From a virus: DNA of 64,000 bases. The notes beneath the pieces were generated by a model that worked only from the letters and a program-made list of their open reading frames with translations, searched no databases and was not told where the DNA came from. Positions 50,451 through 50,522 of this stretch are shown here, in pieces. Made by a program: the position numbers and the translations under genes. The stretch lies in IMG/VR virus record IMGVR_UViG_3300034104_001007, positions 1 to 64,000 of that record; one strand, 5' to 3'. Within the stretch, counting starts at the first letter, position 1. Each line of letters starts with the position of its first letter.

Positions 50451-50522
50451 ATGTGGACAACACCAGCAGCTACAGAAATGCGTTTTGGCTTTGAAGTAAC
50501 TATGTACGTAATGAACAAATAG
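50451..50522 (+). CDS. pqqA: PQQ precursor peptide PqqA
   Basis: The 23-residue peptide has the full PqqA pattern: MW at 1-2, P5, R11, G13, and the key E15 and Y19 in GFEVTMY. PqqE cross-links that Glu and Tyr, and they become the PQQ skeleton. Length and the positions of W2, P5, R11, G13, E15, V16, T17, Y19 and N22 equal those of Klebsiella PqqA. AAGGAG lies seven bases before the ATG. PQQ is the cofactor of methanol and glucose dehydrogenases. The window has no pqqB-E, so host enzymes would be needed. Flanked by a terminator and an HNH gene. Confidence 0.95.
   Translation: [23 protein letters not shown]

Follow-up and report, generated by a model that had tools for sequence, protein, structure and literature searches.

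An orphan pqqA gene beside the capsid gene of a Methylophilaceae phage, and its recurrence among methylophages

Phage-borne pqqA has been described in two earlier settings. The Lake Baikal viral population VP_266, a T4-like virus predicted to infect Methylophilaceae, was reported in 2020 to carry PqqA together with methanol dehydrogenase, and the gene was read as an auxiliary metabolic gene of methanol oxidation (PMC7678222). Viral pqqA/E/D were reported from reservoir sediments (PMC13188868). These two reports correct the preliminary description of the present locus, which had been aware of no well-characterised phage pqqA. On the host side, Methylophilaceae have multi-copy, dispersed pqqA genes beside one pqqBCDE set (PMC4109929).

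Here we analyse pqqA in a stretch of 64,000 nucleotides (the window) from the 64,738-base IMG/VR record IMGVR_UViG_3300034104_001007. In contrast to VP_266, the pqqA of the window stands alone in an HTVC023P-like phage, and no PQQ_2-domain protein was found in the window's record; moreover, orphan copies also occur across unrelated lineages and in cultured phages whose records lack the annotation. The dispersed Methylophilaceae copies share the peptide and a related upstream element with the phage gene, but they are chromosomal and their hosts also own the pqqBCDE set (PMC4109929). As far as the literature shows, the presence of pqqA in every cultured Methylophilales phage lineage found appears to be new, and so apparently are the large-scale precursor-only state, the upstream element shared with hosts and the proviruses in pqqU.

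The pqqA gene and its insertion site

The pqqA reading frame consists of 23 codons and a TAG stop that fill its interval exactly (Table 1), with AAGGAG a few nucleotides 5' of the ATG. Its product is PqqA, as the preliminary description had claimed, and scores well over the curated cut-offs of both Pfam (PF08042, 40.3 bits, E 3e-10; cut-off 21.1 bits) and NCBIfam (the TIGR02107 equivalog, 38.8 bits; cut-off 20). The residues listed earlier (W2, P5, R11, G13, E15, V16, T17, Y19 and N22) are correct, and E15 and Y19 form the E-x-x-x-Y pair that becomes PQQ. A PqqA-like regular expression matched once in the six frames of the window and in none of 200 shuffles, which, with the profile scores, rules out a chance reading frame. 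PHROGs gave no PqqA family match for the gene, and phmmer against the PDB gave no relative of the 23-mer.

Table 1. Features of the window around pqqA
Feature	Position	Strand	Basis or remark
Major capsid protein gene (phrog_371), upstream neighbour	49400..50314	+	PHROGs, homology
Intrinsic terminator, strong, between capsid gene and pqqA	50332..50355	+	terminator prediction
pqqA upstream element ATGGTTTTC (consensus ATGRTTTTC)	50358..50366	+	93 nt before start codon
-10-like GCAGAAT, putative part of pqqA promoter	50392..50398	+	alignment of capsid-adjacent relatives
pqqA ribosome binding site (AAGGAG region)	50437..50443	+	seen in sequence
pqqA (23-residue PQQ precursor peptide)	50451..50522	+	translation, PF08042, TIGR02107
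HNH endonuclease gene, same intergenic site, 3' of pqqA	50630..51040	-	PHROGs
Cement protein gene, downstream end of insertion site	51144..51599	+	homologue of DSL-LC04 cement protein

The complete record encodes exactly one PqqA, and a search for PqqB, PqqC, PqqD and PqqE gave no match anywhere in it, consistent with the earlier claim that no other pqq genes are present. The pqqABCDE operon, the usual though not defining context of pqqA, is thus lacking here; an operon is not required of PqqA, since Methylophilaceae have dispersed copies.

The nearest relatives of the large terminase, at 51-53% identity, are those of DSL-LC04 and of the Pelagibacter phages HTVC027P/HTVC023P; the capsid protein shares 63-72% identity with its counterparts in DSL-LC04, HTVC027P/HTVC023P and Pag-Yong1-like phages. 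The record also encodes portal, polymerase, helicase, primase-like and tail genes. In addition, a 2016-residue protein with an LPD38 domain (positions 10240-16290), of the polyvalent type, is possibly injected alongside the DNA.

DSL-LC04 has the same order of portal ... capsid-cement, but no more than 132 bp separate its capsid gene from its cement gene; in the window this gap is filled by the terminator, pqqA and the HNH gene on the opposite strand. Of 80 IMG/VR relatives whose capsid protein is 86-95% identical, three have pqqA, and in all three carriers it starts 135-170 nt past the capsid gene (137 in the window). Other relatives have a short gap, an HNH gene alone (as at the equivalent place in L251 and L252) or different inserts, and pqqA was absent from the whole records of the 19 of these others that were searched. 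Because the relatives vary at this site, pqqA in the window's family is an accessory gene at one insert-accepting position and not a member of the head operon in which it had first been placed; the terminator closes off the capsid transcription unit, and pqqA forms a small unit of its own.

The locus has features of two known classes of phage gene. It is a host-like metabolic gene lying between structural genes (capsid, cement) of an HTVC023P-like phage, as expected of an auxiliary metabolic gene. Similar to morons, pqqA is an independent small unit between phage genes, often has its own terminator and varies in presence among close relatives at one site; in the window, the unit has a terminator upstream of it and the conserved upstream element. 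Typical morons, however, are expressed from prophages, whereas the pqqA methylophages include isolates obtained by culture lysis.

Orphan pqqA in phages and its host counterparts

We searched the peptide by tblastn against 50,697 phage records and obtained 12 matches. Nine are records of Methylophilales/Methylophilaceae phages (P19250A, MEP301, Venkman, MEP401, MEP402 and four Melnitz), and the other three are the uncultured phage ctXG6705 and two contigs of bacterial appearance. The peptide of the isolated methylophage P19250A is 100% identical to that of the window. An orphan pqqA is present in all nine named Methylophilales-phage records found; additional Methylophilales phages of the NCBI taxonomy, MEP431-434 and HIM624-A, are not among the matches. 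With P19250A and Venkman taken as one group, the isolates make up four unrelated lineages, and the window is a fifth.

The gene was unannotated in all six phage records that were opened, cultured methylophages among them, as had been anticipated for so short a gene; at its position there is either no feature or only a reading frame on the opposite strand (Melnitz, ctXG6705). The gene goes unmentioned in the publications on Venkman, MEP301, MEP401/402 and Melnitz, the last of which refers to PQQ solely as an additive of the medium. A degenerate-codon scan of IMG/VR yielded at least 120 pqqA loci, and a sub-pattern met by nine of the 120 listed loci itself gave at least 120 matches. The IMG/VR total is at least in the hundreds and perhaps about 1,600 or more, provided that the scan meets the loci in random order.

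One match, 'Acinetobacter phage MD-2021a' (L008, CAKLQF020000010.1), was dropped as a phage pqqA, as the contig bears adjoining pqqBCD and ppk along with a radical-SAM gene; at least that part looks bacterial. Conversely, a contig of a Flavobacteriaceae MAG (L248, CAKZOO010000028.1) derives from a methylophage; it carries pqqA and shares about 90% identity with phage reading frames. A different type of orphan PqqA, with higher GC, occurs in a further set of phages (L011, L020, L025, L030, L337, L421 and others).

PqqB-E were found in none of 231 phage pqqA loci checked, as against 24 of 120 host loci in the same test, which rules out a mis-binned host operon. Each of 50 whole phage records contains exactly one PqqA, and in none of the 50 did PqqE exceed the cut-off.

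Among the phage copies, mean pN is 0.10 and mean pS 0.58 (pN/pS 0.17), and the 23 phage loci with the exact peptide of the window have 19 different DNA sequences. Judged from these substitutions, phage pqqA is under purifying selection. Phage copies are related within lineages, so that the counts do not represent independent events. The 75 distinct phage peptides vary at positions 3, 4, 6-10, 12, 14, 18 and 20-23; E15, Y19, R11, G13, V16 and T17 are invariant in all of them, although the search pattern demanded them and also held several of the other non-varying positions constant. A pattern without the E15/Y19 requirement returned the same 120, adding no locus and no variant among the matches listed.

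These data bear on the idea that the peptide is a decoy or brake, which would occupy PqqD/PqqE, lower PQQ and stop methanol oxidation or alter the cell surface in favour of the phage. Inhibition by a short mimic of the substrate is plausible. However, the phage peptides keep the cross-link residues and the recognised motif even where E15 and Y19 are not asked for, and they are frequently identical to the host's and should therefore act as substrate. We regard a decoy as very unlikely.

In the hosts, pqqA was present in 120 of 120 Methylophilaceae genomes, with a median of 4 copies (range 1-12) and more than one in 114; PqqE was over the cut-off in 112 of the 120. The window peptide is identical to 61 of 131 host copies in a genome pattern scan whose matches were nearly all Methylophilaceae. 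A Methylophilales host and a tblastn check of the peptide had been proposed at the outset, and the tblastn and genome searches bear the host out, with identical copies in Methylophilaceae chromosomes and in Methylophilales phages. The hosts that encode the identical peptide belong to a family in which PqqE occurs, and the window peptide is probably a substrate of PqqE/PqqD that can be converted to PQQ. That the hosts have amplified pqqA alone fits a need for precursor dosage. In marine Methylophilaceae (L145, L148, L200, L210, L215, L232), two tandem pqqA genes lie about 200 bp apart, and the pairs encode different peptides, MWTQP.. and MWTTP../MWTKP...

The capsid protein of the window was matched in one of 187 Methylophilaceae genomes. 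This match lies on a 5.4 kb Methylophilaceae-binned contig (L449; G237:C147, 1-5426) that starts with the last 68 residues of the capsid protein (85% identity) and continues with a terminator, pqqA, a 70-residue reading frame and genes read as glmS, glmU, atpC and atpD. The contig links this phage family to a Methylophilaceae host. The join may be a provirus, a provirus remnant or an assembly chimera; unless chimeric, it is a sign that pqqA can stay behind in a chromosome with phage DNA as its source.

The gene might accordingly be a hitchhiker, which recombines at a short conserved unit, is of little benefit to the phage and spreads pqqA among host genomes. The dispersed host copies, the contig joining the capsid end and pqqA to glmS-glmU-atpC-atpD, and the patchy occurrence of pqqA at one site within the window's family are in line with this. 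Against it, pN/pS is low, the key residues are never lost in phages, and all isolated Methylophilales phage lineages encountered have pqqA, contrary to what neutral carriage would lead one to expect. On balance, we consider mere carriage unlikely.

Orphan pqqA also occurs outside methylotrophy. In eight IMG/VR loci (L401, L391, L340, L346, L386, L390, L409, L441), a Klebsiella-type pqqA adjoins a disrupted 5' portion of pqqU (yncD), which encodes a TonB-dependent PQQ importer that is also a phage receptor (PMC12124388). In this set, to which L447 also belongs, pqqU is split after codon ~85, and the orphan pqqA and a terminator lie about 150-200 bp inside that end; one record has the 3' part of pqqU and an integrase at the opposite end. 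A provirus that interrupts the importer gene thus carries a PQQ precursor gene of its own. Such enterobacterial proviruses would suit a role of PQQ, or of a product derived from PqqA, apart from methanol dehydrogenase, for instance in protection from oxidative stress, as a signal or in blocking a PQQ-binding receptor. We hold this to be extremely improbable for the methylophages, given that by far the most phage copies belong to the Methylophilaceae type, which points to methylotrophy.

Cassette layout and the upstream element

Around pqqA, 126 phage loci have 93 different neighbour pairs, and 44 of the 126 copies are antisense to both neighbours. A terminator lies within 100 nt 3' of pqqA in 58 of 123 phage copies (1-3 in shuffles), and a Shine-Dalgarno-like site precedes it in 114 of 121. 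In the window, no terminator was detected downstream of pqqA. A sigma-70 promoter scan of the upstream regions was practically at chance level (8.19 mean matches against 8.03 in shuffles), and the RNA fold of the upstream region was unremarkable (z -0.58).

Alignment of the capsid-adjacent copies revealed a conserved ATGRTTTTCT...GCATAAT, which is nearly absent 3' of the capsid gene in relatives without pqqA. The window has a sole plus-strand copy of the element, ATGGTTTTC; the -10-like part is proposed from this alignment. ATGRTTTTC occurs exactly in 46 of 171 phage upstream regions, compared to 0.3 in shuffles and 0 on the opposite strand, and is about 100-fold denser upstream of pqqA than elsewhere in those loci. 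Near matches are present in P19250A, MEP301 and Melnitz and absent in Venkman, MEP401 and ctXG6705.

In the host version, ATGRTTTTC is one half of a near-perfect inverted repeat, CTCATGATTTTCATGAG, located about 130 bp 5' of pqqA in host loci L129-L247; 66 of the 73 repeats in host loci are within 220 bp of a pqqA. We read the shared element as a putative operator or promoter part. No description of this inverted repeat was found in the open-access literature, and CTCATGATTTTCATGAG is apparently an undescribed operator.

Proposed role of the phage gene

One PqqA is consumed per PQQ, while PqqB-E are catalysts that are reused. Precursor alone could therefore keep PQQ going, because PqqA is destroyed one for one. 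Cyanophages with psbA likewise provide only the fast-consumed part of the host energy machinery; the logic is alike and the family different, the psbA product being a photosystem protein and that of pqqA a ribosomal peptide from which the cofactor itself is formed.

We consider it quite probable that phage pqqA is a mobile auxiliary gene cassette (upstream element, ribosome site, the 23-codon gene and often a terminator) that supplies the consumed substrate of PQQ, with host PqqB-E doing the chemistry. During infection of Methylophilaceae, a phage transcript would yield additional PqqA; host PqqE/PqqD would make the E15-Y19 cross-link, and a host protease, PqqB and PqqC would complete PQQ. PQQ would thereby be maintained after the host ceases its own supply, and the PQQ-dependent methanol dehydrogenase and cell energy would continue. 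The latent period of MEP401/402 is 17-20 h, and a phage that shuts down host expression yet depends on a supply of energy over such long times would gain in fitness by providing the consumed part only. Extra precursor may not be limiting, as the hosts already have several pqqA copies.

Somewhat doubtfully, we also entertain that pqqA is a mobile unit shared by methylotrophs and their phages, equipped with one regulatory element in common, taken up repeatedly by unrelated phages and redeposited by phages in host chromosomes. If true, this would explain the up to 12 scattered pqqA copies of Methylophilaceae beside one pqqBCDE set, and the phage would plug into the host's own control of PQQ synthesis.

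The 72-base gene has been missed by gene callers and annotators in published genomes of cultured methylophages, and this has hidden a main metabolic connection of phages with methanol oxidation in lakes and coastal seas. As an auxiliary gene it is very small and of clear logic, in which the consumed part would be supplied and the enzymes left to the host, and it looks like a cheap way to top up host energy metabolism during infection. The shared upstream element gives a way in to a regulator of PQQ synthesis that apparently has not been described.
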